Shown piece by piece: positions 36,096 to 55,399 of a stretch of DNA of 64,000 bases. Numbering within the stretch: position 1 is the stretch's first letter; each line of letters starts with the position of its first letter. A program made the translations under genes and the position numbers. The DNA lies in NCBI GenBank assembly GCA_016213105.1, contig JACRBN010000001.1, positions 62,001-126,000 of the forward strand. The letters are read 5' to 3'. Source of the stretch: Chloroflexota bacterium. Lineage in GTDB: Bacteria; Chloroflexota; Anaerolineae; Anaerolineales; Villigracilaceae. The notes below the pieces were generated by a model. That model had not been told where the DNA came from, searched no databases, and was given only the letters and a program-made list of their open reading frames with translations.

Positions 36096-36749
36096 TTATG
36101 GCTTGATCAAGCCTTTGCGGATTGCGTACTTTACCAGTTCACTGCGGTTGTGGAGGCCCAATTTTCCCATCAAATTCTCGCGATGACGGGCCACCGTGTG
36201 CGGACTAATGACCAACTCGGCGGCGATCTCGTCATTTGTCTTTCCCTCGGCCAGCAGGGAAAGCACTTCCTGCTCGCGCGGGGTCAGATCCTGCACCGTG
36301 ACCTCCAAGCCGCCTTCGCCGGCCCGCACCAGAAAGTCATTGACCAGCAGTTTTGCCAGGGATGGATAAATGTACACGTCGCCGTGATGGGCCGCGCGGA
36401 TGGCGGCGATCAGATCATCGGGGGCGGCGCGTTTGGGCACGTAAGCCGAGGCTCCCACCCGCAGCATCTCGAAGAAATACTGTTGATCCTCATGGATGGT
36501 CAAAGCCACTACCGCCATTTGCGGGTGCGCCAATTTGAGCCGCTGGGTCACCTCTATGCCAGACATATCGGGCAGGGTGATGTCCATGATGACAACATCC
36601 GGGCGCAACTGGTCGGCCAGTTCCAGGGCTTGCATTCCTTTGCCCGCCTCGCCGATCAGGATCAGGTCATCCTCGTTTTCCAACAGCATTCGCAATCCGC
36701 TGCGCACAACGGAATGATCATCCACGAGCAATAGCCGAATTTCAGCCAT
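36096..36749 (-). CDS. NarL/FixJ-family response regulator A
   Basis: 217 aa. Receiver with DD at 10-11, phosphoacceptor Asp56 in VIMDITLPDM and Lys106; LuxR-type HTH near the C-terminus (LTPREQEVLSLLAEGKTNDEIAAELVISPHTVARHRENLMGKLG). Paired with the histidine kinase at 36742-38196 (8-nt overlap) and 21 bp downstream of the cytochrome operon, with which it is probably co-transcribed. Paralogue of 51060-51752. Confidence 0.93.
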   Translation of the reverse strand: MAEIRLLLVDDHSVVRSGLRMLLENEDDLILIGEAGKGMQALELADQLRPDVVIMDITLPDMSGIEVTQRLKLAHPQMAVVALTIHEDQQYFFEMLRVGASAYVPKRAAPDDLIAAIRAAHHGDVYIYPSLAKLLVNDFLVRAGEGGLEVTVQDLTPREQEVLSLLAEGKTNDEIAAELVISPHTVARHRENLMGKLGLHNRSELVKYAIRKGLIKP

Positions 36750-38196
36750 GTGATTCCTTCTCCAACGGCACGCTCACTTCGATCAGCGTGCCCATTCCAG
36801 GCTCAGACGTAATGACACAGTCCCCTCCCACCAGTGAGGCGCGCTCCTGGATGCCAAGCAGCCCCCAGCAGGGATATTCGCGGCGATTCAACGCGGCGTT
36901 TACGTCAAAGCCGCAACCTTTATCCTCGACGCGGATGCGCACTTTATCTTCTTGAAAGATAACCTGCAAGTCGGCGTGATTGGTTTTTGCGTGGCGGATG
37001 ATGTTGGTGATGCACTCCTGGACGATGCGATAGAGAACGGTACGCACTTCCGCTGAAAGGGCCGTATCCTCTCCCTGGCTGGAAATTGCCACCGTTACCC
37101 CGGCCCGCTCCTGCACCTGGGCGCAGTACCAGCGCAGGGCCGCCGCCAGGCCGAAATCATCGAGTTGGGGCGGATGCAAACCCGTGATCAGGTTTTGCAG
37201 GCCAAAGAGACCTGTCGCCACCACACCTTGCAATTCGCGCGCCTGCTTGCCCACCCGCTCAGGGTGGATGACAACATTATCCGACATGGCGCGCAACCCC
37301 ATTCCGAGGGCGGTCAGGGTCTGGCCGATCTCGTCGTGCAATTCGCGGGCAATCCGCTGGCGCTCCAATTCCTGGGCGCGGACGGTCTGACGCAGCAATT
37401 CCTCGCGCAGTTGCTCCAGCCGTTGACGCTCGTCCAACTGTGCCTGGCTCAGGCTTTCGATCTGGCGGCGGGTTTCCTCCTCGAAGGCCCGCAGGGAGCG
37501 GATGATCGAAATCGCGGCGATACAGGCGGTCACCGAACGGAAGAGTTGGATGCGGAATCCGAACCATTGCAGAAAAGTGTCCGAGTTGAGAAAGCGCGAG
37601 GGAAATACCACGCTTGGCGCGGCAAAGAGCTGACCGATGCCGCCGTACAAGCCAAAAGCCAGCGCCGCTGCGATCACGTCGCGCCCAATGCCGCTCATCC
37701 CTGCCTGTAAAAATTTCTGCCGCTGCAAAAACAACCCCCAGGCGGTTAATGCCGCGCCGGGGATTGCCAGGGAATAACGGGTATACACATCCGCCGCCAC
37801 GATGCGCACATCATGCGGTTCGGTCAGGAACAACCAGGCCAGGCCCACAGTCCAGACAAAGGCGATGGCGCCCAACAACTGCCACGAAAGCCGGTGACGT
37901 TTGGGGCCGACAACCAGCCTTGCGCCAAAGGAGATCAGGAACAGGAAGGAGATCGCCAACAGGACAACCCGCCCCGGTGCGATCCACTGCTGCAAGGCCG
38001 AATCCTGTGTTTGCGGGTAGATCAACAGGAACATCTCCAGCCATTCGTGGACGCCATGCACCAGGCCAAATCCCGCCAGGGAACGCAGGGCGCGCGCAAA
38101 GTCGAGTTCAGAAGAACGGCCTACTTCCAGCAGGACGGCCAATCCCATGCTGAAGAAGGAGAGCCCGTAGAGGAAGTAGACCGTTATGATGTCCAA
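36742..38196 (-). CDS. NarX/DegS-like sensor histidine kinase A
   Basis: 484 aa. Residues ~1-235 hold about seven transmembrane helices (MASE-like sensor, with YGLSFFSMGLAVLLE and FGLVHGVHEWLEMFLL), then coiled coil, HisKA_3 with the phosphoacceptor His in RIARELHDEIGQTLTALG, and HATPase_c with ECITNIIRHAKTNH and GCGFDV. Membrane-embedded His-Glu pair HGVHEW is shared with the paralogue at 49594, suggesting a redox, quinone or ligand sensor. Start is a TTG at 38196 with AAGG upstream; no ATG fits. Follows the NapC-type cytochrome gene by 21 bp. Confidence 0.9.
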   Translation of the reverse strand: MDIITVYFLYGLSFFSMGLAVLLEVGRSSELDFARALRSLAGFGLVHGVHEWLEMFLLIYPQTQDSALQQWIAPGRVVLLAISFLFLISFGARLVVGPKRHRLSWQLLGAIAFVWTVGLAWLFLTEPHDVRIVAADVYTRYSLAIPGAALTAWGLFLQRQKFLQAGMSGIGRDVIAAALAFGLYGGIGQLFAAPSVVFPSRFLNSDTFLQWFGFRIQLFRSVTACIAAISIIRSLRAFEEETRRQIESLSQAQLDERQRLEQLREELLRQTVRAQELERQRIARELHDEIGQTLTALGMGLRAMSDNVVIHPERVGKQARELQGVVATGLFGLQNLITGLHPPQLDDFGLAAALRWYCAQVQERAGVTVAISSQGEDTALSAEVRTVLYRIVQECITNIIRHAKTNHADLQVIFQEDKVRIRVEDKGCGFDVNAALNRREYPCWGLLGIQERASLVGGDCVITSEPGMGTLIEVSVPLEKESHG

Positions 38197-38217
38197 GTGT
38201 GTCGCCTTACAAGTATC

Positions 38218-39909
38218 TTATCTCTCGGGCGCTCCCGCGTCAATCCATTGCTTGATCAAATCCAATTCCTCGGCAGTGAGATTCAGGTAATGTTTGGCGC
38301 TCTGGATCTTCACCAGGAGGCTGTTGGCGGAATCGTTCGGGATGATGACCACCCCATCCTTGCCGCCCTTCATCAGGTCAGCGAAGGTGATGAGGTTCAA
38401 CCCACCCGAGGCGGCCTTGCCGTGACAGGCTCCGCACTTGGTGCTGAGCAGCGGACCGATCGTAGCCTCATAGGTCAACGCGCCGGATGCGCCGCCGGTC
38501 GATTGCGGGGCGGGCGTGGGAAGTTGATCCTTGAGAATTTCGTGCAGGGCCGGGGCGTCGAAGCCCGCAAAGGTGAATGCGTTTCCATGACAGGCGCTGT
38601 TCGAGCAGAAGGAGGTGTTGCTCGTGCCGCCCATGTCGGCCGTGGTATGGCACTGGGAACAGGTCTCGTTGATGGATTGGTTGTGCAGGCTGATCCAGTT
38701 GGCGTTGAGGTGCGAATCCGGCTCGACGCCGCCACTGTTGATCTCGATCTTTGTGACCAGGTCCTTGGGGCCGGTGACCACCGGGATGGAATGGCACAAA
38801 TTGCACTCCAGGCGCACGGCTTCATTGTCCGCATTCAAGTGCTTGCCGTCGTGGCAGCGGAAACAGCCCGGGGAGTTTATGTGTCCCAGATTGTTGGGGT
38901 GCGTCGTCCAGTCGATCTTTTGTTCCTTGAAGACAGTGCGATCATAGATGGCCTGGATCTCGGTCAGCGCCTTCTGAATGGTTTCACTGTTTTGGGAGTA
39001 GTAATCGGGGTAAGTCTGCTGGTACACCCCGTCCAGGGCGGCAATCGCCTTGACCGCCTCGTCGCGCGTCCCATAAGTGATGCTCAGCACACCCACGGCC
39101 ATTTGATGAATGGACGGGATGGACGGATCGATCAACCCGCGCGCCATGGAATTATCCACGGATTCGGATGGATACATGAAGTCGTGGGTCACACGATTAT
39201 GGCAGGTGGTGCAGTCCATCTGCCTGAGCTGGCCCTCGTCCAGGCTGGCCGGGTCAAAACCAGACTCGACGTCCGTGTATTCCGTGTACGAGGCGTCGTC
39301 ATTGTAGACGCGCACATACGGAATTTCCTGGTTCAGGTCATCGGCCGCGTAGTACTGCACCTTGTTGGTGATATGCCAGTGGATGCCGAAGCCGAGTCCC
39401 TCGCGTTTGTCGCCGCCGCCCGTCTTCAGGATCAGGTAGGTATTCGAAGCCGTGTTGAGCTCATCGTTGGCGAAATGCTTGATCGACCGCAAACTGTCGT
39501 CCGAAAAGGTTTCGGGGCGGTGACATTTTTCGCAGGTCTCCAGCGCAGGGCGCAGGGCCTCGGCGCGGATCGGATATTCATACAACTTGAAGATCTCGTA
39601 ATAGGTTTCCTTGAGGCCCTGTGTCTTGCGCATCAACTGGTTGGTGAAGGAGGCGCGGCCGATATGACACTCCTCACAGGTGACCTTGGCATGCGGCGAA
39701 TTCAAGTAGGCCACATTCTGGGGCGGCATGGTATGACAGGCGGTGCCGCAGAAGCCCGGCGAATTGGTATATTCCCATCCGTATGTGCCGCCGGCGAGCA
39801 GTACCAGAAAAATGACGATCAGGGCAAGATAGGGCAGCACATATGCCCAGCGTGACGAGCCGGGCGCTGGGGCAAAAAAACGGCCCAGACGTTCCATGAT
39901 TTTTTTCAT
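38218..39909 (-). CDS. NapC/NirT-like nonahaem cytochrome c with C-terminal c-type domain
   Basis: 563 aa. One N-terminal transmembrane anchor (residues ~23-46) leads into a NapC-like start: FCGTACHTMPPQNVAYLNS with a non-canonical CX3CH (Cys54-His59), then CEECH, CEKCH, CTTCH, CFRCH, CNLCH, CSQCH, a CX4CH (CSNSACH), and a terminal single-haem domain with CGACHGKAASGGLNL and HYLNLTAEELDLIKQWIDAGAPE. Nine potential haems. A NapC-type anchor suggests quinol contact. GGAGG lies 5 nt before the ATG at 39909. The terminal domain resembles that fused to the cytochrome b at 39967. Confidence 0.9.
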   Translation of the reverse strand: MKKIMERLGRFFAPAPGSSRWAYVLPYLALIVIFLVLLAGGTYGWEYTNSPGFCGTACHTMPPQNVAYLNSPHAKVTCEECHIGRASFTNQLMRKTQGLKETYYEIFKLYEYPIRAEALRPALETCEKCHRPETFSDDSLRSIKHFANDELNTASNTYLILKTGGGDKREGLGFGIHWHITNKVQYYAADDLNQEIPYVRVYNDDASYTEYTDVESGFDPASLDEGQLRQMDCTTCHNRVTHDFMYPSESVDNSMARGLIDPSIPSIHQMAVGVLSITYGTRDEAVKAIAALDGVYQQTYPDYYSQNSETIQKALTEIQAIYDRTVFKEQKIDWTTHPNNLGHINSPGCFRCHDGKHLNADNEAVRLECNLCHSIPVVTGPKDLVTKIEINSGGVEPDSHLNANWISLHNQSINETCSQCHTTADMGGTSNTSFCSNSACHGNAFTFAGFDAPALHEILKDQLPTPAPQSTGGASGALTYEATIGPLLSTKCGACHGKAASGGLNLITFADLMKGGKDGVVIIPNDSANSLLVKIQSAKHYLNLTAEELDLIKQWIDAGAPER

Positions 39910-39966
39910 GAGCACCTCCAGGAATCTTAAGGAGCATGCCAAAGCATGCTCCTACGGTTTCAATCC

Positions 39967-41214
39967 TTACTTTTCCAGCGCGCCCGCATCCAACCAGGCT
40001 TTCACCTTGGCGATTTCCTCGGCCAGCAGGGCCGCATACGGATGTTTTCCGCCTTCGAACTTTACAATCATCGGGCTGTTGGCCGCATCGCCGGGGGTAA
40101 ACACAAGCCCAGAGGCGCCGCCCTTCATCGCGTCGGCATAAGTGGAAAGGTTCAATCCGCCCGAAGCGGATGCTCCGTGGCACATCAGGCATTTCTGCGC
40201 GAACAGGGGGCCGATTTCCACATCCCAGGTGAAAGCGGCAGCAACGGGGGCTTCTGTCGCGGTGGCGTCGCCAGTCGCTTCGGTGGCAGGCACGGGCGTG
40301 GCAGTCGGGGCCGGCGTCAGCGTCAGCGTGACGGTGGCGGTCGGCCGAAGGGTCGCCGTCTGCGGCACGTACACGGGCAGCGTCGGCTGTAATTGCGGGT
40401 TCACAACCGCAGTGGTTTCGTATCCCACAAAGAAGTAGAACCCATAGCTGAAGAGCGCCAGGATGACAATGGCAATCGGCGCATAAATGTACTGGCGTTT
40501 GCGCAGCACGGCGGGCGGGATGGGGTCGGGCTTTTTGCCCGCATCGATCTGCGCCAGTTCGGCGGGATGCTCGTGCTCCATTTCCTCCCGGCTCAGCTTG
40601 CCGGTGAACATGCTCAGGTTGAGGTGTTTGATGTGCACGTGGTAAAAGTGCCAGATGATGATGGCCAGGACGGCCAGCACCGCCTCGCCGCCATGCGCAG
40701 CCTTCGCGGCGGGAATAGCCTCGCCGGGCAGAATGCGCAGGGTCGAGAGCGGATTCCACATCATGAAGCCGGTCAGGCCCATGACGAGCGTGCCCCAGAT
40801 CAGGGCCAGATACTCGGCCTTCTCTGCATAGGAGTAACGGCCGTAATATCCCTTGTGCTTGCGCAGGCCAAGATAGTACAACACATCCTCGTAGACGTGC
40901 AGGAGGTCGTTAATCCACGGGATCATGGAGATGGGCGTGCGCAGGACGAGGACGCGGTACAGCACCTCCAACACATGGAACACACTGACGATCATCATCA
41001 CGATCGCAGAGGTGTGATGGATCAGACGCACCGTTTCAATACCGCCGAAAATCTTGAAGAACCCTGCGCTGATCGGCGAGAGGGGGAATTTTTGCGGCAG
41101 GCCGGTGAAGCCCAATATGGTGAAGGAAATCAAAAAGATGATGTGCTGCAACCTCTGCACAATATCGAAACGGACGTAGGTCGCCGCTCCGGGGGCCCGG
41201 GTTTCCTTAGTCAT
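39967..41214 (-). CDS. Cytochrome b fused to a C-terminal cytochrome c domain
   Basis: 415 aa. N-terminal four-helix dihaem cytochrome b of the formate dehydrogenase gamma/hydrogenase type (QRLQHIIFLISFTILGFTGLPQKF, RLIHHTSAIVMMIVSVFHVLEVLYR, WGTLVMGLTGFMMW, HGGEAVLAVLAIIIWHFYHVH), with several paired His for b haems. A fifth helix follows (~250-270), then a Pro/Thr-rich linker and a monohaem domain with CLMCH and SGGLNLSTYADAMKGG. The paralogue at 42643 lacks this extension. ATG at 41214 overlaps the upstream cytochrome stop by 8 nt. Confidence 0.92.
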   Translation of the reverse strand: MTKETRAPGAATYVRFDIVQRLQHIIFLISFTILGFTGLPQKFPLSPISAGFFKIFGGIETVRLIHHTSAIVMMIVSVFHVLEVLYRVLVLRTPISMIPWINDLLHVYEDVLYYLGLRKHKGYYGRYSYAEKAEYLALIWGTLVMGLTGFMMWNPLSTLRILPGEAIPAAKAAHGGEAVLAVLAIIIWHFYHVHIKHLNLSMFTGKLSREEMEHEHPAELAQIDAGKKPDPIPPAVLRKRQYIYAPIAIVILALFSYGFYFFVGYETTAVVNPQLQPTLPVYVPQTATLRPTATVTLTLTPAPTATPVPATEATGDATATEAPVAAAFTWDVEIGPLFAQKCLMCHGASASGGLNLSTYADAMKGGASGLVFTPGDAANSPMIVKFEGGKHPYAALLAEEIAKVKAWLDAGALEK

Positions 41215-42643
41215 GGGGGGCCTCCTCGTTGTCGTTTTTGGATTCATCGGTGGGCGCAGTAGGCTCTTCGCCGTCGGTTTGTTCCACGGGGGCGGCAGCG
41301 GATTCCTCTGCCAGGGTTTGAGGAGTTGCAGGGGTTTCGGGCATGGCCTCGCTCACGGGCGGCGCTTCCTCGGAAATCGCGGCAGGTTCCACGCTTTCCG
41401 CCTGGATTTCTTCGGGAGCCGCAGCTTCCGCTTCAGAGATTGGCGGCGCCTCATGAGCGGGAACGCGCTTCGATTTTCTGGAAAGGTTGATCATCTTGCG
41501 GGTGAAGTCCATCGCAGCCAGGATCGCCATCGGAATGAGCACACCGGGGATCATGAACTTGTAGAACAGGTTGACGTAATAAACGATCGGATATTTTTCA
41601 GGAGTGGGGATGTAATGCGAAAGCCACGCATCCGGGAAATTCGCGTTGGCATCCGGGTGGCAGGTCTGGCAGCGATTCAACAGGTTTTCCCGCACCGCCA
41701 GGCCCTTGGTGGGATCATCGATTTTGGCGATGTCATGCACGCCGTGACAGTCGGTGCAGACCGGCTTGTTGGTGGGCTGGTCGGGAAACTCCTTGTTGAA
41801 GATCTCGACCGTGGTACCGTGAAAATCGGCGACGTAGGTATTCAACACCTGCGTGGACAGGCCGTATTTCTTCATCAAAGTTTCGTCGGTATGGCACGTG
41901 GCGCACAGGTAGGGGGTGCTGTTGCGGAAGGTGGCCGTGGTCGGGTCCTGAATATTGTGGACGCCGTGACAGTCGATGCACGTCGGCACATCCGTGTTGC
42001 CTTCCTGGGTCAGGGCGGAGCCGTGAACGCTCTGCTGGTAGGCATTATAGATGGCGCTATGACACCTGGCGCAGGTTTCCGGGACGTGCAGGCGGGCCTC
42101 ATCCAGCAATTCACCGCTAGCGGGATCCGTCATGCGCGCCTGGGTGTGGGGATTATGGCAATCGGCGCAGACAGCCGCATTGTTGTTCCCGGCCGCCAAG
42201 GAGCGTTGATGCACGCTGTCCAGCGTCAGGTTGAATTGCTCGGCATGACACTCCTTGCAGGAGGTGTAATACTTCAGCGTAACGTCGCGCAGGGTGTTGA
42301 CCGTACGCTCGGGATGCGGGATGCCGGTAATGTCGGTGTGACAGGAGATACAGGCCACTTCATTGGCGCCATGCACGCTGGCTTGGAAGGCGTCGGCGTC
42401 AAGGGTCAGGCGCAGGATTTCACCGCTGTCCAGTTCCACCTTGAGGCCTTCGTTGGCGTGACAGGAGAGGCAAAAACCATTGTCTGCCGCCTGGGGCTGG
42501 GACCCGCTCTGCGGCAACGAGAGGGCGGCTTCCACCTCCCCATTCACGGGAAGCGGGCGTGCGGAGGCCGACGACAGGGCGAATCCAAAACTGACGAGGC
42601 AGGCTATCAGCCCCGCCGCGAAAAGCAGGTTGCGCAGTCGCAT
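41207..42643 (-). CDS. Nonahaem cytochrome c, membrane-anchored (paralogue B)
   Basis: 478 aa. Signal peptide, then nine CXXCH sites (CLSCH, CISCH, CKECH, CADCH, CARCH, CIDCH, CATCH, CTDCH, CQTCH) up to residue ~345, one transmembrane helix (~372-392, FMIPGVLIPMAILAAMDF), and a long acidic Pro/Ala/Glu tail on the cytoplasmic side. Repeats of SVHG and CxDCHGVHxI mark a duplicated fold. Related to 43350-44462. The ATG at 42643 overlaps the cytochrome b stop by one base. The cytoplasmic acidic tail is unusual and unique to this copy. Confidence 0.93.
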   Translation of the reverse strand: MRLRNLLFAAGLIACLVSFGFALSSASARPLPVNGEVEAALSLPQSGSQPQAADNGFCLSCHANEGLKVELDSGEILRLTLDADAFQASVHGANEVACISCHTDITGIPHPERTVNTLRDVTLKYYTSCKECHAEQFNLTLDSVHQRSLAAGNNNAAVCADCHNPHTQARMTDPASGELLDEARLHVPETCARCHSAIYNAYQQSVHGSALTQEGNTDVPTCIDCHGVHNIQDPTTATFRNSTPYLCATCHTDETLMKKYGLSTQVLNTYVADFHGTTVEIFNKEFPDQPTNKPVCTDCHGVHDIAKIDDPTKGLAVRENLLNRCQTCHPDANANFPDAWLSHYIPTPEKYPIVYYVNLFYKFMIPGVLIPMAILAAMDFTRKMINLSRKSKRVPAHEAPPISEAEAAAPEEIQAESVEPAAISEEAPPVSEAMPETPATPQTLAEESAAAPVEQTDGEEPTAPTDESKNDNEEAPHD

Positions 42644-43353
42644 CACTTCATCTCCCCTGACTGGTTGGCGAGACGCTGATACTCCTTTTCATGGAAGGTG
42701 CGCAGTTCCTCCTCACTTAATCGACCCGTGAACATGCTCAGGTTCAGGCGCTCGATATGCACGTGGTAAATGTGCCAGATCACGATGAAGATCGCCAGCG
42801 CCACCGACTCGGTGCTGTGGGCCAGCTTCGCGGCCGGCACAACACCGCCCGGCAGAACCTGCGTCATCTGCACCGGGAACCAGATGATCAGACCGCTGAT
42901 TCCCATGATGGCAACGCTGAAGAAGACCACCCAGTAGGTCACCTTCTGTTCGAAGTTATAACGGCCAAACCTCGGTTTGTCCTTGCGCAGGAAGAGCAAA
43001 TACTGGAGCATATGCCAGGCATCGCGCAGATCCTGCATGGTGGGAAGCAGGTCGCCCGGCAGGCGGCGGCGGCTCATCAACACGAGAATACGGCCCACAT
43101 GGTACATGACCAGCAGACTGAGTACGATGGCGGCAATGTGGTGAACCTGGCGGATCAGGAAAATCTGTTCCGGGGTCGAGAGCAGATCCTGGCTGATGGA
43201 AAACTCGCGATATTTTTGGGGCAGGCCGGTCAGCAAAAGGACCAGGCCGCTCAACAACAGGATGGCATGTTCCCAGCGCTGGCCCACGGTAAAACGCAGG
43301 AAACTGCGCTCCTGTCGGGCAAGCGTGGTGGATTTGGCGTTTTTTCCGCTCAT
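42643..43353 (-). CDS. Cytochrome b (dihaem, formate dehydrogenase gamma-like)
   Basis: 236 aa, four core helices: WEHAILLLSGLVLLLTGLPQKY, RQVHHIAAIVLSLLVMYHVGRIL, YWVVFFSVAIMGISGLIIW, HSTESVALAIFIVIWHIYHVHIERLNLSMFTGRL. His pairs are placed for two b haems. Paralogue of the N-terminal part of 39967-41214 (shared LTGLPQK, HVHIxxLNLSMFTG). Likely a quinol-oxidising or -reducing subunit partnered with the upstream nonahaem cytochrome. Start overlaps the previous stop by 4 nt. Confidence 0.93.
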   Translation of the reverse strand: MSGKNAKSTTLARQERSFLRFTVGQRWEHAILLLSGLVLLLTGLPQKYREFSISQDLLSTPEQIFLIRQVHHIAAIVLSLLVMYHVGRILVLMSRRRLPGDLLPTMQDLRDAWHMLQYLLFLRKDKPRFGRYNFEQKVTYWVVFFSVAIMGISGLIIWFPVQMTQVLPGGVVPAAKLAHSTESVALAIFIVIWHIYHVHIERLNLSMFTGRLSEEELRTFHEKEYQRLANQSGEMK

Positions 43354-44462: not shown

Positions 44463-44713
44463 TTGCTAGGACTCCTTGGGGTTTCGGCGTTTTGCTTCCT
44501 GTTCGAGTCCGCTTCTGATGGTTCAGGGCGGGACGTCCCGCCGCCGCCCTCGCCGTTCTCGGCGCGGTCATCGGGCGGCTCTGGGGACTCAGCAGCTACC
44601 AGGCCCATTTTTCGGAGCAGGTAGGAGATCCCAAACAAGACGGCAAGCGGGATAATACAGCGCAGGATGAAAAGCAAGGCCACAAAGATTGGATTGGCGG
44701 ATGTGTCATTCAT
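44459..44713 (-). CDS. Small single-pass membrane protein heading the cytochrome operon
   Basis: 84 aa from the ATG at 44713 (MNDTSANPIF), with GGAGG 8 nt upstream. One transmembrane helix (~7-32, FVALLFILRCIIPLAVLFGISYLLRKMG), then an acidic Pro/Gly-rich cytoplasmic-type tail. No family recognised. Stop overlaps the next ATG by 4 nt. It may assist assembly of the cytochrome complex. Its promoter region carries a Crp/Fnr-class operator. Confidence 0.75.
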   Translation of the reverse strand: MNDTSANPIFVALLFILRCIIPLAVLFGISYLLRKMGLVAAESPEPPDDRAENGEGGGGTSRPEPSEADSNRKQNAETPRSPSK

Positions 44714-44807
44714 TGCATTTCCCTCCACGGCCAAGCTTTACAAAAGCTTGCAGCGTATATGGTAGGCATTGCGTCTCCGAATATGAATGTGGGATTAATT
44801 GATGGAT

Positions 44808-44852
44808 AGTATAACCCAAACCTGTCACAGCAGAATATTGACATATGTCACA
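44808..44852 (-). promoter_or_regulatory. Promoter and Crp/Fnr-type operator of the cytochrome operon
   Basis: Minus strand TGTGACATATGTCAA (44852-44838), core palindrome TGACATATGTCA centred at 44844.5; TATACT as -10 at 44813-44808. With a start near 44801 the operator centre lies at about -43. Operon served: 44713 down to 36096. Confidence 0.65.
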
Positions 44853-44862
44853 TTAACCCATC

Positions 44863-44895
44863 AAAAAAGAGCAGGCACAGATATGCCTGCTCTTT
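44863..44895 (-). terminator. Terminator of the nrfD-type operon
   Basis: On the minus strand AAAGAGCAGGCA-tatctg-TGCCTGCTCTTTTTT, directly after the NrfD-like stop. It separates the octahaem/FeS/NrfD operon from the nonahaem operon. Confidence 0.95.
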
Positions 44896-44914
44896 CGTGT
44901 GGGATTTTTTCAGG

Positions 44915-46141
44915 TTAATGTTCGTTGTTTTCGAAAAGCGGCAGGAAACGCACCCCCAACGTGAGCACGGTCAGGGCATAACCGATTACCAGGATCCCCA
45001 CCCCCCACTCCACCAGGGAGGGGAAGTAGGTGCCGGCCGGCAGTTGGAAAAGGGTGCCCGGAGAATAGGAAATGGGCACGAACAGCCCGCCGACGGTCAC
45101 ATCCCAGCGGTGGATGATGATCCCGATCATGGCCGAGGCGCCGCCCAGCACGGTCGCGGCTGGATTCTTGTTGAAGCGGGGCACCAGGAAGAGAATGGCG
45201 GGGAGGACAATGCCCAGGAGCACTTCCCCGACCCAGAAACTGAAGCTGTATGGGGTCTGCTGCTGGAGCATCGCAAACGCGGAGCTGACGCCGGGCGTGC
45301 GGCCGTAATAGGTCACCGCGGCCATATCCCAGAATTTGATGTAGCCATAAACCAGCAGGCCAACGCCGCTGAAACGGGCCACAAGTTGCAGCACATCGTG
45401 CGGAATCGTGCGTTTGCCGATGATCCACTCGATCACGTACGCGACCGAAATGGTCACCGCGGGCCCGGCCGCAATGGCAGACAGCACAAACATGATCGGC
45501 ATGCTCGGCTTGAACCAGAACGGGCGGGATTTGAGCACGCCGTACGTCGCTCCAAGCGAGGATTGGTGCAGCAGGGAAATGACCAGTCCCAGCACCGCCA
45601 GGAAGGGGGTCAATTTGTGCAGGAAATGCCCAAACTTGCGCAGGGCCGGCCAACGGTCGAAGAACTTGGTCTCCACGATCACCGGGGCAAATTCGGTGAC
45701 CAGGATGAGCAGGTAGACCGTGATGCACATCGTGACTTCCCACAACACGGAATGCACGTTCCAGAACACCCAGGGATGCCAGAAACGATCCGGGCGGCCG
45801 ATATCCACCAGCAGCATCAGCATGGCGGAGGTATAGCCGGCAAAGCCGACCAGGATCGCCAGACGGATGACCGCCTGCAGGCGTTTAATGCCGAAGATAT
45901 ACACAATCGCCGACAAAGTGAAGGCGCCCGCGCCCAACGCAATGGATGAAAGATCAATCGTGATCCACAATCCCCAGGGGACCGAGTCAGTCAGGTTGGT
46001 GATTACCAGGCCTTTAATGAAGACCGTGATGGCCGCGTAGACGCCGATCAGGATCAACACGGCCAGAAAGCCCAGCCAGACCAAAAAGAGCGGGCTGAAG
46101 GGAAGTTGGAAAGGTTTACGGTTCAGCGTGGAAGCAGTCAT
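44915..46141 (-). CDS. NrfD/PsrC-family membrane quinone-interacting subunit
   Basis: 408 aa with about ten transmembrane helices. NrfD-type features: SVPWGLWITIDLSSIALGAGAF near helix 2, DIGRPDRFWH, WEVTMCITVYLLILVTEF, SLLHQSSLGATYGVLKSRPFWF, and a C-terminal IIIHRWDVTVGGLFVP. Forms the membrane arm that exchanges electrons and probably protons with menaquinone, with the ferredoxin subunit (46143) and octahaem cytochrome (46963). Starts 1 nt after the FeS gene stop; AAGGAGG upstream. Ends at a strong terminator. Confidence 0.95.
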   Translation of the reverse strand: MTASTLNRKPFQLPFSPLFLVWLGFLAVLILIGVYAAITVFIKGLVITNLTDSVPWGLWITIDLSSIALGAGAFTLSAIVYIFGIKRLQAVIRLAILVGFAGYTSAMLMLLVDIGRPDRFWHPWVFWNVHSVLWEVTMCITVYLLILVTEFAPVIVETKFFDRWPALRKFGHFLHKLTPFLAVLGLVISLLHQSSLGATYGVLKSRPFWFKPSMPIMFVLSAIAAGPAVTISVAYVIEWIIGKRTIPHDVLQLVARFSGVGLLVYGYIKFWDMAAVTYYGRTPGVSSAFAMLQQQTPYSFSFWVGEVLLGIVLPAILFLVPRFNKNPAATVLGGASAMIGIIIHRWDVTVGGLFVPISYSPGTLFQLPAGTYFPSLVEWGVGILVIGYALTVLTLGVRFLPLFENNEH

Positions 46142-46142
46142 T

Positions 46143-46982
46143 CTAGATGCCCTCCTTGGGCGGGATGTAGTACACGCTGGTTTCCGTCCCCAGGTCGTCG
46201 CGCAGACGCAGGGTGGGGTTGGTCTCGATAAGTTGGGCTACCCTGCTTTCCGGATCCTTCAGGTTTCCAAACGTGCGCGCTCCCACCGGGCAAATGTTGA
46301 CGCAGGCCGGGGTCGCTTCGCGGTCCACGCCAGGCATGAGGCCTTTTTCCAGGCCTGCATCGATGCGGTGGATGCAGAAGGTGCATTTCTCGATCACGCC
46401 TCGCGGGCGTCGTTCGACCTCGGGATCGCCCCAGGCCGGGACGTAGGGATTCTCATCGGTGCGCTCCTCCCAGTTGAACTGGCGCGCATCATACGGGCAG
46501 GCTACCTGGCAGTACCGGCAGCCAATACAGCGATCGTAGTCCATCACCACCAGGCCGTCCTCGCGGTGATAGGTTGCCTTCACCGGACAAACCTCCACGC
46601 ACGGGGCGTTCTGACAGTGCAGGCAGGGGCGGCTGAGGTAGAACGTCTGGCCGCCCGTCGTTTCTTCCTTGATGACCACGTTCCACGGGTCTTCAGCGCG
46701 CACATCGTTGGTGGCGATGCAGGCGCGCATGCAATACTCACAGCCGATGCACTGGTCCAGGTTGATGACCATGCCCCAATGATGTTCACCGGTTTGGGCG
46801 CCGTGACCGCCGGTCGCTTCGCCTTCCAGTTGCTGCTGCTTCAATTGGCCGAAGGGCGACAGCGGGCCGGTGGTAAGCAGGGGCGCAGCCACAACAGAAC
46901 CGACTGCTGCGATCCCCAGCTTTAAGAAATCGCCGCGGGTCAGTTCGATGACAAGCTTCTTCTTACTTGCCTTTTTCGTCAT
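46143..46982 (-). CDS. Four-cluster ferredoxin subunit (NrfC/PsrB/DmsB type)
   Basis: 279 aa. Four cysteine groups for four [4Fe-4S] clusters: CIGCEYCMRAC, CLHCQNAPCVEVCP, CIGCRYCQVACP and CTFC...CVNICP. The N-terminus has a Tat-like sequence TRGDFLKLGIAAVGS in which the second twin Arg is Gly, so Tat export is possible but not certain. Transfers electrons between NrfD and the octahaem cytochrome. The ATG at 46982 overlaps the octahaem stop by 20 nt in another frame; GGAGG lies 9 nt upstream. Confidence 0.94.
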   Translation of the reverse strand: MTKKASKKKLVIELTRGDFLKLGIAAVGSVVAAPLLTTGPLSPFGQLKQQQLEGEATGGHGAQTGEHHWGMVINLDQCIGCEYCMRACIATNDVRAEDPWNVVIKEETTGGQTFYLSRPCLHCQNAPCVEVCPVKATYHREDGLVVMDYDRCIGCRYCQVACPYDARQFNWEERTDENPYVPAWGDPEVERRPRGVIEKCTFCIHRIDAGLEKGLMPGVDREATPACVNICPVGARTFGNLKDPESRVAQLIETNPTLRLRDDLGTETSVYYIPPKEGI

Positions 46983-47961
46983 TTTCTTCGACCTCCACAA
47001 AGCGAATACGGCGGCTGACGACCCAGGCAGCAACGCCACCCATGATCAGGCCAACGATGGCGCCCTGCATCAAGCCCGTATACAGGCGCACGGAACTCTG
47101 CGCTTCGAGACTCTGGATCTGCTGTTCCTGATCCTGTACCTGCTTTTCGAGTTCCTCCGTGGTGGGCGCCGTGCCGGCATCCTGTCCGCTCAGTTGCAAA
47201 ATGGTATCGCGCGTATGCACGGTATCCGTATGGCAGGAGATGCAGGCTTCGGAACCAACCGAGAAGGTATGTCCGGTGGCGAATAATCCGCCGGTGGAAT
47301 CGGTATGCGTGGCGGTCGCCATGTGGCAGTCACTGCATTGCAGGCCGGAGTTCGCGTGGGTTCCATGGGTAAAGGAGGAGCCTTTTTCCTTGTGGCAATT
47401 GCTGCACAATTCATTGATCGTATCAGCGCGGGGCGCCTGGGAATGCGGATTGTGGCAGGACTCGCAATTGATGTTCACCGCGCCGTGACTGCTGGCGCGC
47501 CATTCATCCGTGGTGGTCTTGTGGCATTTCGCGCACAAGGTGTAGTCCGGCGTGACCGGCATGGGATTCTTCGGATGTTCCTTCTGCAGGGGACCGTGGC
47601 AGGATTCGCAAGTCACGCCCTCCTCCGAGTATTTACCGGTGGTGGCGTCAAATCCAGTGGTATGACACTCCAGGCAGGAATCCGCCGAGCCTTGTTTAAC
47701 CCAATCTTCCTGGAAAACAGGCGACGAGAAAGCCTCGGAATGCAGGGTACCCGCCCAGGTTTCGTGAATGTCCTTGTGACAGCCTGCGCAGGCGTCCGAG
47801 CCGGCGTAGTTGCCGCCCTCCTGGGCTGGCGGCACTGCACCCGGAGCGGCCGCAACGGGTTGGGCCATACTGATAGCCACGCCCAAGGCCAGACTCAGCG
47901 CAAAAACCACGACAAACATCGTCCAGCTTGGCGTTCTGAAATTGAGTTGCGTTTTCTTCAT
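46963..47961 (-). CDS. Octahaem cytochrome c with C-terminal coiled coil and membrane anchor
   Basis: 332 aa from the ATG at 47961. Signal peptide (~14-38, VFALSLALGVAISMAQPVAAA), eight CXXCH sites (CAGCH, CLECH, CESCH, CAKCH, CESCH, CSNCH, CSDCH, CISCH), then a Gln/Glu coiled coil (TEELEKQVQDQEQQIQSLE) and a transmembrane helix (~300-320) with a short basic tail. The CXXCH order and NPHSQ/CH spacing resemble the DmsE/MtrA-like decahaem family and NrfB-type carriers. No P460-type Tyr cross-link or CXXCK site is visible. First gene of the octahaem-FeS-NrfD operon. Confidence 0.93.
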   Translation of the reverse strand: MKKTQLNFRTPSWTMFVVVFALSLALGVAISMAQPVAAAPGAVPPAQEGGNYAGSDACAGCHKDIHETWAGTLHSEAFSSPVFQEDWVKQGSADSCLECHTTGFDATTGKYSEEGVTCESCHGPLQKEHPKNPMPVTPDYTLCAKCHKTTTDEWRASSHGAVNINCESCHNPHSQAPRADTINELCSNCHKEKGSSFTHGTHANSGLQCSDCHMATATHTDSTGGLFATGHTFSVGSEACISCHTDTVHTRDTILQLSGQDAGTAPTTEELEKQVQDQEQQIQSLEAQSSVRLYTGLMQGAIVGLIMGGVAAWVVSRRIRFVEVEENDEKGK

Positions 47962-48193
47962 AATTACGTTCTCCCGTTGGGTGGATTGTTGCAATGTATG
48001 TGCATAAAATTGGGGTTAACGGCACAATGTACGCTTTCTCACAATCGGTCGTTAAGCCTATTCTAATTTATTACTACAGTTTGGACAGTGTTGAATATCA
48101 CAATATCGGTATGATTTACATAAATGCAATCATCAGCGCTTATGAGAAAATATATCCTGCAAAAGCAATATTCACCCGATTCGGAAAAAGAAA

Positions 48194-48219
48194 ACAGGGC
48201 TGCCGGTTGGCAGCCCTGT
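48194..48219 (-). terminator. Terminator after the hexahaem lipoprotein gene
   Basis: Minus strand ACAGGGCTGCC-aacc-GGCAGCCCTGTTTTCTTTTT. The rest of the 47962-48249 gap holds an AT-rich promoter region for the octahaem operon with no ORF; ATGATT and AATCAT arms 11 bp apart near 48110-48132 are the only symmetric feature seen. Confidence 0.9.
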
Positions 48220-48249
48220 CTGTATTGCTGAATTGCTTATGCGGCAGGC

Positions 48250-49287
48250 TTACTGTAAGGCCGCAAGAGCAGCATCGATCAAAGCGGTGAAGTAATTCGG
48301 GTTGTGAACGCCCATGCTGCCGTCTTCCTCGATCAGGAAGTAGGTGAACAGCGCCGAAGCGGTGGCCTTGTCATAGCTGCCGGGGACGGCCGCATAGCCT
48401 TCAGCACCTTCCGCGATCAGGCCCTTGGCCAACAGAGCGGCCTCGAGTTCCTTGACCTTCTCTTCGAAGGCGGTCTGGTAGCCATTGATGTCGAAGTTTT
48501 CGGCATCGGCATGGCAGGTCACGCAGGTACCAAGCTGCGGTTCGAAGCCGTGGGCATCGCTCTCGCCCATGTGGCAGCCCACGCAGGTGTTTTCCACCAT
48601 GCTGTAGTGCGCGCCGGGCTTGCCTTCAACGCCGAGGTTGGCAGCAACATCCACAATACCCATCAGGGTATCGACCTGGACGCTGTAGTGGGTGTTGAAG
48701 CGGGCCGTGGCGGCAAACTTGGTGGCATCGTTCTTGTCCACGAAGTTGGCCATGTAGCGGCGGGCCTGGTGGCAGTTGGCGCACAGGTTACCGGAGCCGC
48801 CATCGAAGGTCGCGCCACTGGTGACCAGGGTCACCGGGGCGTTGGTCTCGAGAGCCCAGTCTTCGCCGGTGTAGGTAACATGGATCTGGTGGCAGGTGCG
48901 GCAGTCCTGATGGGTCGGGTTGGCATCGCCGCTTTCGAGCTGGCTGAAGTTCTGACCAGCGGCAATCATTGCGCTGAAAGCCGAGCCAGAGTGACAACCG
49001 GCACAAGTGTTGCGGCCGCCTTCTTCAGCGAAAGCGGTGCCAGCGCCATGACCGGAAATGGACCAGGGGGCCTTCTTACCGGTGATGATGGCGGTGTCGT
49101 TGTGGCACTCCTTGCAGGTCAGTTCAGTCATAGCGCCATCGGCGCCGGCAGCGCCGGCAGGGCCGGCAGGACCCGCAGGGCCAGCGGGACCAGCAGGGCC
49201 TTCCGGGCCGGCAGGACCTGCGCAAGCGGACAGGGCAAGAACAAGCACCAGTGCGCCGAGCAAAACGAGCAATTTCTTGATAGACAT
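48250..49287 (-). CDS. Hexahaem cytochrome c lipoprotein with collagen-like stalk
   Basis: 345 aa. Lipoprotein signal MSIKKLLVLLGALVLVLALS followed by the lipid-anchored Cys22. Residues 24-51 are nine uninterrupted Gly-X-Y triplets (GPAGPEGPAGPAG...), then six CXXCH haem sites (CKECH, CAGCH, CRTCH, CANCH, CVGCH, CVTCH) between residues ~58 and 255, and a haem-free C-terminal domain. The stalk could lift the haem domain away from the membrane through the cell wall. Monocistronic with its own terminator; an upstream Crp/Fnr-class site lies about 64 bp before a likely minus-strand TATTAT start. ATG at 49287 preferred over 49296 by ribosome-site spacing. Confidence 0.9.
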   Translation of the reverse strand: MSIKKLLVLLGALVLVLALSACAGPAGPEGPAGPAGPAGPAGPAGAAGADGAMTELTCKECHNDTAIITGKKAPWSISGHGAGTAFAEEGGRNTCAGCHSGSAFSAMIAAGQNFSQLESGDANPTHQDCRTCHQIHVTYTGEDWALETNAPVTLVTSGATFDGGSGNLCANCHQARRYMANFVDKNDATKFAATARFNTHYSVQVDTLMGIVDVAANLGVEGKPGAHYSMVENTCVGCHMGESDAHGFEPQLGTCVTCHADAENFDINGYQTAFEEKVKELEAALLAKGLIAEGAEGYAAVPGSYDKATASALFTYFLIEEDGSMGVHNPNYFTALIDAALAALQ

Positions 49288-49437
49288 TGTTTGCATTCTC
49301 CTTTACTAGAATTTTCGAGGCTCCATGCCTGGCGCCTCGGACAGCACCCACAAGGGACACTCTGCCCAATGATTGGGTAATACACCCATAATAATTTACC
49401 GAAACCTTAGAAACAAGTTAATTTGCCACAAAACATA

Positions 49438-49479
49438 TATGACATAAATCACATCTATTTCAGTAAGAAGAGATATTAT
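49438..49479 (+). promoter_or_regulatory. Crp/Fnr-type operator and -10 of sensor kinase B
   Basis: TATGA-CATAAA-TCACA (49438-49453), one mismatch from TGTGA-N6-TCACA, then TATTAT at 49474-49479. A start near 49486 puts the operator at -40.5, the class II position. On the minus strand a TATTAT (49393-49388) would place the same site near -64 for the hexahaem lipoprotein gene, so it may act both ways. Confidence 0.6.
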
Positions 49480-49593
49480 GCGAAAACAGGCAAAAAACTC
49501 CTATTTTTATGCTTTTTATCACCGTGTACTTATGATGCCCGCCATGAAGCCTTTCAGGGACAATATTGTACAATCGACGGTGGACAAAAACTC

Positions 49594-51048
49594 ATGCAAA
49601 CCATCGATTTTGTGCAATGGTTGTTCCTGATCTTCTTCATCTATGGCCTGACCTTCTTTGCCATGGGTATGGCCATGGCGTTGGAATCAGGCCGCCGCCT
49701 GGCCCTGGCTGATTCCAGGGTGCTGCGTCCGCTGGCCGCCTTTGGGTTGATTCACGGCACGCACGAATGGTTCGAATCCTACCTTTTGCAGGCCCAGGCC
49801 ATTGGGACCCCGCTGATCGCCTTGACCCCCTGGATCAGGCTGTTCCTTTTGTTCACCTCCTTCACCTGTCTGTTCTTTTTCGCCTATAACCTGTTGCTGC
49901 TGGCCTCCTCCCACCCCATCCAAAGGCTCCGTCAACTCGTTGGGGTGCTTGCCCTATACATATTTCTCTTCCTGGGCAGCGCCTTCCTCACCTACAGAAC
50001 AGGAACCGTTCCCTGGACCGACTTGCTGGATGGGCTGGGACGTTACCTGTTGGCCGCCCCAGCCTCGCTGCTGGCCGCCCTGGCCCTGCGCGCCCGGGGA
50101 CGACAATCCCACGCCGAAGACCGCCCCGCCCTGGAAAAGCATTTCCGCCTGGCGGCCCTGGGCTTCGGGATTTACAGCCTGACGCAGTTTTTTGTCCATC
50201 CGCTGGCAATGTTCCCTGCCAGCTTTATCAACGAAGGCAGCTTCATTGCCGTCACGGGCTTCCCCATCCAGATCGTTCGCACGCTCATGGCGCTGGTCAT
50301 CACCTACAGCCTGCTGCGCGCCACCAACGCGGTCGAGGAGGAACGCAACCTGCAATTGTTCGCGGTTCAACAGGCCCGTCTGCAAGCCTTGCAGCAGCGT
50401 GACGAGCTGCGCCGCGACCTGCTGCGGCACACCGTCCAGGCCCAGGAGGATGAACGCGCCCGCGTGGCGCGCGAGCTGCACGATGAGACCGCCCAAATCC
50501 TCTCTGCGGCCACACTGCACCTGGCCGCCTTGCGGGTCAGCCTCAAGCGCAAACCCGATGCGCTGGCCATCGTCGAACAGTTGCAGGGACTTACCCGCCA
50601 GATGTCCCACAGCCTGTACCGACTGGTGCATGACCTGCGGCCGGCCCACCTCGACGATCTGGGCCTGATCCCCGCCATGAATTATCTGCTTGCCGAGATG
50701 CGCTCCACCAAGGAACTGGAGATCGATCTCAAGGTGGAAGGCGTCCCGCACCGGCTGGACCTGTCCATCGAAACCATCCTGTTCCGGGTGACGCAGGAGG
50801 CGATCAGCAACATCATCCGACATGCCAATGCGCGCCGCGCGCGCGTGCAATTATTCTTCGCTGCGGACCATGTTCATTTAACGGTGGCAGACGAAGGTCA
50901 GGGTTTCGACGCTCAGGGGCCCTTCCACGCGCCGCGCGGCTGGGGCCTGGAGGGGATGCGGGAACGGGTCGAGTCGGCGGGCGGAACTTTCATCTTGAAA
51001 TCTGCAATCGGGCAGGGCACCCAATTGGACGCCACGATCCCGCTTTAA
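49594..51048 (+). CDS. NarX/DegS-like sensor histidine kinase B
   Basis: 484 aa, same length as kinase A at 36742. About seven transmembrane helices in residues ~1-235 (FIYGLTFFAMGMAMALE, FGLIHGTHEWFESYLL), then a coiled coil, HisKA_3 with the phosphoacceptor in RVARELHDETAQILSAATL, and HATPase with EAISNIIRHANARRAR and DEGQGFD. Shared HG(V/T)HEW motif in helix 2 suggests the same ligand or redox signal as kinase A. The frame opens at 49423 but the ATG at 49594 aligns with the paralogue. Transcribed divergently from the hexahaem lipoprotein gene. Confidence 0.9.
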   Translation: MQTIDFVQWLFLIFFIYGLTFFAMGMAMALESGRRLALADSRVLRPLAAFGLIHGTHEWFESYLLQAQAIGTPLIALTPWIRLFLLFTSFTCLFFFAYNLLLLASSHPIQRLRQLVGVLALYIFLFLGSAFLTYRTGTVPWTDLLDGLGRYLLAAPASLLAALALRARGRQSHAEDRPALEKHFRLAALGFGIYSLTQFFVHPLAMFPASFINEGSFIAVTGFPIQIVRTLMALVITYSLLRATNAVEEERNLQLFAVQQARLQALQQRDELRRDLLRHTVQAQEDERARVARELHDETAQILSAATLHLAALRVSLKRKPDALAIVEQLQGLTRQMSHSLYRLVHDLRPAHLDDLGLIPAMNYLLAEMRSTKELEIDLKVEGVPHRLDLSIETILFRVTQEAISNIIRHANARRARVQLFFAADHVHLTVADEGQGFDAQGPFHAPRGWGLEGMRERVESAGGTFILKSAIGQGTQLDATIPL

Positions 51049-51059
51049 GGAGAAATATC

Positions 51060-51752
51060 ATGGAAGAAATCACACTCATGCTGGTGGACGATCACGACGT
51101 GGTGCGCACGGGGCTGCGCTCCTATCTGGAAACACAGCCTGGGATGCGGGTGGTGGCCGAAGCCCGCAACGGGGCGGAAGCCCTGAAGATCGTAACGAGT
51201 ACGCGCCCGCAAATCGTGTTGATGGACATCACCATGCCAGACATGGACGGGCTGGAAGCCACGCGGCGCTTGAAGGCGCAAGTGCCCGAATGTCTGGTGC
51301 TGGCCCTGACCGTGCATGAGGACAAGCAATACTTCATGGAAATGCTGGCGGCGGGCGCGTCGGGATACCTGACCAAGCAGGCGGCCGCCGACGAATTGGT
51401 GGCGGCCATCCACGCTGTGGCCGGCGGCAACATCTACCTCCAGCCCGCGCTGGCCCGCTGGCTGCTGGAGGATTACCAGCGGCTGGCGCGCCAGGTGGGC
51501 ATCCAGCCGCGTGTTCAGGAGGAGGAACCGGACGAGGGCGTGGTCGGCCTGGATGCGTTGAGCGCGCGCGAACGCCAGGTGCTCGAACTGGTGGCGCAGG
51601 GGCTGAGCAATCACGACATCGGCGCAAAACTGGATCTGAGTCACAAGACCATTGCCCGCCACCGCGAGCGTATCATGGCGAAGCTCAAGATGCACTCACG
51701 CACTGAATTGGTCAAGTTTGCCATTCGCACCGGCTTGATCTCGCTGGAGTAG
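51060..51752 (+). CDS. NarL/FixJ-family response regulator B
   Basis: 230 aa. Receiver with DD at 10-11, Asp56 in VLMDITMPDMDG, Lys106; LuxR-type HTH (LSARERQVLELVAQGLSNHDIGAKLDLSHKTIARHRERIMAKLK). Closely similar to regulator A (EDKQYFMEMLAAGASGYL against EDQQYFFEMLRVGASAYV). In an operon with kinase B (AAGGAG upstream). Probably regulates the cytochrome and ccm genes. Confidence 0.93.
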   Translation: MEEITLMLVDDHDVVRTGLRSYLETQPGMRVVAEARNGAEALKIVTSTRPQIVLMDITMPDMDGLEATRRLKAQVPECLVLALTVHEDKQYFMEMLAAGASGYLTKQAAADELVAAIHAVAGGNIYLQPALARWLLEDYQRLARQVGIQPRVQEEEPDEGVVGLDALSARERQVLELVAQGLSNHDIGAKLDLSHKTIARHRERIMAKLKMHSRTELVKFAIRTGLISLE

Positions 51753-51880: not shown

Positions 51881-52046
51881 CCCAATTTAGGACAAAATTG
51901 GGGGAGTTTCATGACATCCATCCCGACCCTTCTCAGGGTGGATTAATCTCGCCATGTAAAATGAAACCATTCACAAGATGCAGCGCTTGCGCACTGGGAA
52001 ACGGGCCGACACTATTTCACGAATGTCGGGTTTTCCATTGCGCAAG
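51881..52046 (+). promoter_or_regulatory. Structured leader of the ccm operon
   Basis: The 346-bp gap before ccmE contains no gene but two RNA folds. A: CCCAATTT (51881-51888) / AAATTGGG (51895-51902). B: an extended stem-loop with three paired blocks, CTTGCGCA (51986-51993) / TGCGCAAG (52039-52046), GGAAA (51997-52001) / TTTCC (52032-52036) and CCGACA (52006-52011) / TGTCGG (52024-52029). No U-run follows B, so it is not a simple terminator; a regulatory or stabilising leader is likely. Confidence 0.45.
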
Positions 52047-52098
52047 TCGTTTGGTCTTATCACCCAATGATTCACGTTTTTGTCCGGAGGCAATCCAA

Positions 52099-52581: not shown

Positions 52582-52637
52582 GAAGCTGACCTGGCAGAGA
52601 GTATCTGTCAGGTTTTCATTTGTAACGAGGAGAAATC

Positions 52638-54875: not shown

Positions 54876-54891
54876 CACAGGAGCCCTCGGA

Positions 54892-55389: not shown

Positions 55390-55399
55390 AAACCCCTCG

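Follow-up and report, generated by a model that had tools for sequence, protein, structure and literature searches.

A multihaem cytochrome island with split CbcL-type pairs, an ImcH homologue and a Qrc-like module in an Anaerolineae genome

Introduction

We describe a cytochrome gene island at positions 36096–51752 of a 64,000-nt window (positions 62,001–126,000 of contig JACRBN010000001.1) from a Chloroflexota bacterium of the class Anaerolineae and the family Villigracilaceae; the host genome comprises 5.39 Mb in 28 contigs and is 97.55% complete. All coordinates below are those of the window unless another locus is named. The island holds two paralogous proteins of the CbcL type, each evidently split into a nonahaem cytochrome gene and a cytochrome b gene (M1-b1 and M2-b2), together with an ImcH homologue (N9) and a module of an octahaem cytochrome, an iron-sulfur protein and an NrfD protein (O8, F and D). 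In Geobacter, CbcL and ImcH oxidize quinol at the inner membrane for extracellular electron transfer (PMC6295460, PMC9129911, PMC12307469). Most of the parts are already known kinds—what is new is the combination and the gene split.

Organization of the Island

Eleven genes on the reverse strand form a run whose largest internal gap is 180 bp. The first is O8 (46963–47994), an octahaem cytochrome with a C-terminal transmembrane (TM) helix, followed by F (46143–47039, probable start 46982), a 4Fe-4S subunit like DsrO and QrcC, and D (44915–46141), an NrfD-family membrane protein like QrcD, HmcC and HybB. After sm (44459–44734), a small one-helix membrane protein with no family match, come the two pairs: M1 (43350–44462) and M2 (41207–42646) are nonahaem cytochromes that end in a TM helix and match the N-terminal half of CbcL, and b1 (42643–43353) and b2 (39967–41247) are CbcL-type cytochromes b of family PF01292, b2 being FdnI/HydC-like and carrying a C-terminal monohaem PSCyt1 domain (PF07635). 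N9 (38218–39942, probable start at the ATG at 39909) is an ImcH-family NapC/NirT cytochrome that likewise ends in a PSCyt1 domain. The run closes with a histidine kinase, HK1 (36742–38196), and a response regulator, RR1 (36096–36749). Col (48250–49296), also on the reverse strand, encodes a hexahaem lipoprotein, and a second kinase and regulator, HK2 (49423–51048) and RR2 (51060–51752), lie on the forward strand.

Spacing is tight, at −8 bp for RR1/HK1, 21 for HK1/N9, 24 for N9/b2, −41 (as listed) for b2/M2, −4 each for M2/b1, b1/M1 and M1/sm, 180 for sm/D, 1 for D/F and −77 (as listed) for F/O8; O8 and Col are 255 bp apart. Because of this spacing and of terminator-like hairpins 3' of Col and, more weakly, 3' of RR1, the run from O8 to RR1 looks like a single operon. 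Col is probably transcribed separately, since a strong terminator-like site lies 3' of its gene (48192–48221, reverse strand; 13 pairs, eight of them G-C, and a T-rich tail). Individual hits of this kind are weak evidence because the region has 24 terminator-like sites against 16.8 ± 4.6 in shuffles; a scan for promoter-like sites returned four, below the shuffles (7.2), and was therefore left unused.

The first-pass annotation, made from the sequence, had counted about 42 c-type haem sites by eye, and a scripted count also gives 42, ordered 9+1+9+9+8+6 for N9, b2, M2, M1, O8 and Col. The two atypical motifs are both in N9, which has seven CXXCH, one CX3CH and one CX4CH. By chance such numbers would not arise: shuffled versions of the six haem proteins average 0.000–0.049 CXXCH, with a maximum of 2 across 2000 shuffles. 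Among the 14 open reading frames (ORFs) examined at 36096–51752 there is no CXXCK site of the NrfA kind, which sets the island apart from NrfABCD, and no ORF has a match of its own to a molybdopterin or terminal-reductase family, as had been claimed at first pass; nitrite or tetrathionate reduction inside the island is rejected, with neither CXXCK nor a catalytic subunit there. Pfam and NCBIfam place NapC/NirT and PSCyt1 on N9, Ni_hydr_CYTB on b1 and b2, PSCyt1 also on b2, and c7-type multihaem domains on M1, M2, O8 and Col; the cytochrome b (PF01292), NrfD (PF03916), 4Fe-4S, NapC/NirT and multihaem assignments are all confirmed. The two nonahaem/cytochrome b pairs, the NapC-type nonahaem protein and the octahaem–FeS–NrfD module recognized earlier therefore stand, and homology specifies them as split CbcL copies, an ImcH homologue and a Qrc/Hmc-like module with no QrcB adjoining. 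Sequence searches of the PDB gave weak to moderate matches of M1, O8 and N9 to other multihaem proteins or NrfH, and no match for D.

Two CbcL-Type Proteins in Four Genes

For comparison we used named genomes reached by a PpcA scan, which covered 70 loci, none titled Geobacter sulfurreducens; the six searched were Geobacter argillaceus, Geobacter sp. OR-1, Geomonas sp. Red32, Pelotalea chapellei, Oryzomonas japonica and Anaeromyxobacter soli. The cytochrome b1 matches all six, and its best matches in the five Geobacterales are frames of 620–654 residues. Four such CbcL-type frames seen at full length (loci L166–L169) have nine CXXCH motifs and five to six TM helices, in agreement with the published CbcL layout (PMC6295460). 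M1 and M2 match the N-terminal half of these fused proteins (23–30% identity, E 1.6e-26 to 1.9e-38), and b1 and b2 match the C-terminal half (26–30%, E 7.6e-21 to 5.4e-24).

The cofactor sites follow the same division. In an alignment of 50 M rows, four of them CbcL-type rows from Geobacterales, eight of the nine haem motifs are present in every row and the remaining one in 49; seven histidines outside the motifs (distal histidines) occur in all 50. In the b alignment, also of 50 rows, H29, H71, H179 and H194 of b1 are invariant, where three conserved histidines are described for the cytochrome b in PMC6295460. All nine haems of CbcL are bis-histidine coordinated, at −194 mV (PMC9129911), and the distal histidines of M would be compatible with that state without proving it. 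Since M matches the N-terminal halves and b the C-terminal halves, with haem motifs and histidines aligned, M-b is a CbcL-type protein in two pieces.

The pairs thus share with the CbcL/MtrH/MtoC family seven distal histidines, haem motifs that align at all nine positions, and the same order of parts, in which the C-terminal helix of M is followed by an FdnI-like cytochrome b with four conserved histidines. They differ in having the c and b domains in separate genes (overlapping by 4 bp in M1/b1 and by the 41 bp listed for M2/b2), in standing as two tandem paralogous copies, and in the C-terminal c-haems that are frequent on cytochromes b of the island type, where 26 of 43 b ORFs have one to ten CXXCH motifs. 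We therefore regard M-b as a split variant rather than a strict CbcL, because there is no single fused six-TM chain. A resemblance of another sort is offered by Mco of anaerobic methanotrophic (ANME) archaea, in which a VhtC-like cytochrome b lies beside a cytochrome of 7–11 haems in cells lacking an outer membrane (PMC9012536); that system differs in its methanophenazine and VhtC-type b, and we liken the two by description, not by sequence.

At first pass it was suggested that the duplicated pairs could serve two different partners or opposite directions. The duplication is real and has been inherited pair by pair. In trees of M and b (50 rows each), M1 and b1 group with the same four loci, L034, L035, L036 and L037, in a five-row clade with support of 96/93 for M and 100/100 for b, separate from M2 and b2; the shared clade indicates that a pair diverged as one unit. 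Two further genomes outside the trees, G455 and G613, also have the double pair. D and F proteins 62–83% like those of the window occur in four M1-b1 loci (L034, L035, L036 and L182); the association is not strict, as L183 has a more distant D-F (41% and 53%) and L037 has none that we saw. ORFs similar to sm adjoin M1 in L034, L037, L182 and L183, and adjoin NrfD in L061.

N9 as an ImcH Homologue

N9 is evidently a homologue of ImcH, the NapC/NirT-type quinol oxidase of Geobacter, with two extra haems. It matches ORFs in all six Geobacterales and Anaeromyxobacter genomes at 36–39% identity (E 3.7e-63 to 1.8e-87), and the four of these seen at full length have three TM helices, six CXXCH and one CX3CH, as in the published layout of ImcH (PMC6295460). 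All seven ImcH haem sites are aligned in 22 of 22 sequences, including the CX3CH of the first site beside the membrane helix. In addition N9 has two C-terminal haem motifs, one of them within its PSCyt1 domain. This tail (38218–38532) is 49.5% identical over 105 residues to the PSCyt1 domain at the C terminus of b2 (39967–40287), a similarity that hints at a common partner. The tail of N9 also matches both proteins in genome G129.

The O8-F-D Module

O8, F and D form a Qrc/Hmc-like quinone module without QrcB. D is nearest to QrcD (NF041784, 295.6 bits against a cut-off of 570), ahead of HmcC (176.3 bits) and the NrfD model TIGR03148 (43.5 bits), and F is nearest to DsrO (NF045797, 202.2 bits, cut-off 200) and QrcC (186.4 bits, cut-off 400). 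The module resembles NrfD complexes of the Qrc, Hmc and HybB types in these affinities and in the multihaem c subunit alongside. It differs from Qrc in that the QrcC and QrcD scores are under the Qrc cut-offs, that no match to the molybdopterin-like subunit QrcB was found among the ten island proteins scanned, and that O8 is octahaem whereas QrcA is hexahaem. In relatives, the O8 next to F and D has eight motifs, or seven in L183.

Lipoprotein Cytochromes and the Cell Envelope

The first-pass annotation placed a collagen-stalk hexahaem lipoprotein within the island. Its six haems are borne out, as are its Gly-X-Y triplets—ten of them follow the lipobox cysteine, Cys25—and it is as a member of the cytochrome transcription unit that Col probably falls out. 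That the stalk trimerizes is a guess. Col was also considered as a conserved member of the island and rejected as a rule, being present in 2 of 16 family loci. Five or more Gly-X-Y triplets are found in 13 of 141 multihaem ORFs, spread over 12 of 40 loci, versus 3 of 457 other ORFs; in two of the 13 the triplets are runs near the C terminus, which leaves a stalk-like arrangement in 11 of 40 loci. We found no literature on collagen-like multihaem cytochromes in a search whose scope excluded preprints and most subscription papers, and in the available part of PMC5732950 collagen serves only as a comparison.

A decahaem lipoprotein of 700–770 residues, distantly like Col, is found in the locus of 11 of the 16 family members with M-b (for example at 10728 in L051, 7085 in L052, 15205 in L183, 10572 in L188 and 10259 in L190). 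In L188 it is 31% like Col and occupies Col's place, in a frame that is otherwise that of the window: HK1-RR1, O8-F-D, N9-b-M, HK2-RR2 and CcmE-CcmF. Another large cytochrome, a 1253-residue ORF with 32 CXXCH and two CX4CH motifs, adjoins the M-b pair in L040 (10938–14699, reverse strand). As for the envelope, a search for Omp85 gave no match in the host genome and matches in 7 of 14 controls; porins themselves were not searched for. Large multihaem cytochromes, with no porin-cytochrome complexes in the part of the source available, are described for Anaerolineales (PMC7399161), and the Chloroflexi isolate Ardenticatena maritima, presumably monoderm and described as lacking BamA, produces anodic and cathodic currents (PMC5808234).

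Occurrence in Other Genomes

Among 249 genomes of the class (M1 threshold E ≤ 1e-20), M1 matches 96, own genome included. Of the 76 genomes that N9 matches, three match the PSCyt1 tail alone and are set aside; the other 73 comprise 58 of the 96 genomes with M and 15 of the 153 without (Fisher p = 1e-17, uncorrected for kinship). The two lie within 10 kb of each other in 32 of those 58 genomes and not in the other 26, some of which have short contigs. In 39 relatives' regions taken from matched genomes, mostly on long contigs, all 43 M ORFs have b directly downstream. M2 is found in 27 of the 400 genomes sampled from the phylum, own included, six of them outside the class, and in 16 of the 25 family genomes in that sample. 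The 16 family loci (E ≤ 1e-15, window included) hold M2-b2 in 16 cases, D-F-O8 in 12, N9 in nine, HK1/RR1 in eight, CcmE/CcmF in seven, M1-b1 in four and HK2/RR2 in three, of which one reaches just 30% and 36%; since no relative's locus exceeds 20 kb, absences are soft evidence.

Similar groupings occur beyond the phylum. A split M-b is also present in Anaeromyxobacter soli: its nonahaem M of 359 residues is 40% identical to M1 (E 2e-90), b starts at the stop of M, and genes for NrfD, an FeS protein, a kinase and a NarL-like regulator lie no more than about 5 kb from the pair. Geobacter argillaceus has ImcH, two tetrahaem–FeS–NrfD sets and a fused CbcL all inside 12 kb, and in Oryzomonas japonica ImcH and CbcL are adjacent. 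No ImcH was seen in the fetched CbcL loci of Pelotalea chapellei (16 kb) and Geobacter sp. OR-1 (10 kb), so finding these quinone oxidoreductases together is neither unique nor the rule.

For Chloroflexi, a 2018 survey, in the part available, counts a single homologue of ImcH and none of CbcL (PMC6295460); against that zero, the nonahaem half of a split CbcL is in 96 of 249 class genomes, 58 of which also have ImcH homologues. In the same survey ImcH is connected with one member of this group, PMC5146674 names both as separate facts, and the available parts of PMC9671151, PMC12740246 and PMC13212322 do not describe this gene set.

Proposed Function and Alternatives

We consider it probable that the island serves to oxidize menaquinol, that multihaem cytochromes facing outward receive the electrons, and that the purpose is most likely extracellular electron transfer. 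It would then comprise several alternative menaquinol:multihaem-cytochrome oxidoreductases. The sites of menaquinol oxidation would be b1, b2, the anchor of N9 and the NrfD protein in the membrane, with protons released on the outside. From there the electrons would hop from haem to haem through M1, M2 and N9 (and O8) until they reach an acceptor that faces outward and is common to these proteins, as suggested by the same PSCyt1 tail on b2 and N9 and by the lipoprotein multihaem cytochromes. Such lipoproteins—Col here, the 700-residue decahaem protein in relatives—could span the cell wall in an organism whose genome gave no Omp85 match. Geobacter sulfurreducens uses ImcH above about −100 mV and CbcL below it (PMC12307469, PMC9129911); by analogy, N9 might serve high-potential and the M-b pairs low-potential acceptors, with the two regulators choosing between them. 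The end point would most likely be an extracellular acceptor such as a metal oxide, humics, an electrode or a partner cell. The menaquinone-linked conduit proposed at first pass is well supported by homology to CbcL and ImcH; the idea of one undescribed complex is rejected, since the parts match separate known kinds of quinone oxidoreductase.

Several points weigh against this reading. Homology, cofactor sites, the operon-like layout and the conserved pairing are what the sequences establish, and it is from these that we infer menaquinol oxidation, direction, potentials, proton release, haem hopping and the terminal acceptor. The comparison proteins are Geobacterales homologues recognized by layout, not the CbcL and ImcH of G. 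sulfurreducens themselves. Conservation secures the second haem ligand for seven of the nine haems of M, because H97 (42 of 50 rows) is missing from the CbcL rows and H320 (48 of 50) is glycine in two of the four; the AlphaFold model, in which M1 was aligned with M2 only, was too poor to use (mean predicted local distance difference test score 41.6, predicted template modelling score 0.21). A hydropathy script finds one TM helix in N9 and in 17 of 17 class relatives against three in 4 of 4 Geobacterales proteins, although a one-TM ImcH is accepted in Anaerolinea thermophila (PMC6295460). N9 occurs without M in 15 genomes. F may lie outside the membrane, but its signal lacks the full twin-arginine motif: it reads TRGDFLK, with a single arginine, and TRSDVLK in L034 and L182, while two arginines are present in 16 of the 22 F-like ORFs. 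Near-full-length relatives of Col are confined to 4 of 249 genomes, own included, all of one family, and Col is linked to M-b in the window and in genome G027 only; for the decahaem lipoprotein, a search without a positive control found no relative in the window's genome. The QrcD and HmcC families, to which D is closest, are usually described as menaquinone-reducing. Finally, the genome has other respiratory enzymes.

The last of these points gives weight to an explanation that we regard as unlikely, namely that the haem chain delivers its electrons to a soluble terminal enzyme whose gene lies outside the island, the island replacing a bc1-type quinol oxidase and having no extracellular role. 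Electrons could end elsewhere since the genome has one COX1 (a haem-copper oxidase), molybdenum enzymes and a homologue of octahaem tetrathionate reductase (1sp3, E 3.5e-133). Of eight molybdopterin matches seven were scanned: formate dehydrogenase and NuoG were above the cut-off, and a second NuoG-like protein, a PhsA-like and a TtrA-like protein and two pieces of the dimethyl sulfoxide (DMSO) reductase family were below it. However, none of these candidates lies inside the island, and the tetrathionate-reductase-like gene adjoins a 914-residue heptahaem-cytochrome b protein of its own. The ties of Geobacter ImcH and CbcL to extracellular acceptors (PMC6295460, PMC12307469, PMC9129911) also speak for the extracellular reading, as does the decahaem lipoprotein in most family loci with M-b, though it was not found in this genome.

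Electron uptake—an inward chain that reduces menaquinone with electrons from Fe(II), a cathode or a partner cell, above all through O8, F and D—strikes us as improbable. It would accord with the nearness of D to QrcD, a subunit of a menaquinone reductase, with the CbcL-family MtoC of Fe(II) oxidizers in a family thought to be bidirectional (PMC6295460), and with the anodic and cathodic currents of A. maritima (PMC5808234); yet the island has no QrcB-like subunit, and ImcH homologues are reported only from Fe(III) reducers in the available part of the PMC6295460 survey. Direction itself cannot be told from sequence. Equally doubtful, in our estimate, is a more elaborate scheme in which a monoderm cell would carry a redox gearbox in a single operon: a high-potential ImcH, two differently tuned low-potential split CbcL proteins and a reversible Qrc-like module. 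Its details would include a shared PSCyt1 head docking onto one surface haem chain, a collagen-trimer stalk in place of a porin, and switching by the two kinases through a membrane redox sensor outside any Pfam family; this scheme we likewise think improbable. Should outward menaquinol oxidation work as in Geobacter, a large bacterial group would have dedicated machinery for extracellular respiration in the absence of an outer membrane, with M-b and N9 as marker genes for testing this.

Regulators and Neighboring Genes

The cytochromes had been described as bracketed by near-twin NarX/NarL systems. Two paralogous kinase/regulator sets do flank them, but HK1/RR1 appears to belong to the operon as its last two genes, and with identities of 35.5% (HK1-HK2) and 48.5% (RR1-RR2) the sets are paralogues only. 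RR1 is a NarL/FixJ-type regulator (PF00072 and PF00196) and RR2 is NarL-type; HK1 and HK2 are HisKA_3 kinases, the real start of HK2 being probably near residue 58. Likeness to NarX and NarL is confined to the kinase and regulator domains (HisKA_3, GerE), and the N-terminal membrane part of HK1 and HK2 has no Pfam match at E ≤ 0.001, be it to a NarX-type nitrate-sensing domain or to any other family. This membrane part is common to 15 kinases of the fetched loci, all drawn from regions around these islands, with FG..H...EW and other residues invariant, and is perhaps a redox, quinone or haem sensor.

Elsewhere in the same genome (G000), the octahaem tetrathionate reductase homologue, directly before the 914-residue heptahaem-cytochrome b fusion, forms with it a second quinone-linked haem system (L068, contig C4, 9255–13442). 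A gene of the DMSO-reductase family is apparently cut by two contig ends (L178 and L179, on C8 and C3), and a candidate subunit of alternative complex III (ACIII; L180) is nearest to ArrA, then to ACIII B. On the far side of RR2, genes for cytochrome c maturation adjoin the island on the forward strand (51898–60565), encoding CcmE, CcmF, CcmH, a CcmG-like thioredoxin, a cytochrome c protein of 610 residues, an ABC ATPase, CcmB and a CcmC-like protein.

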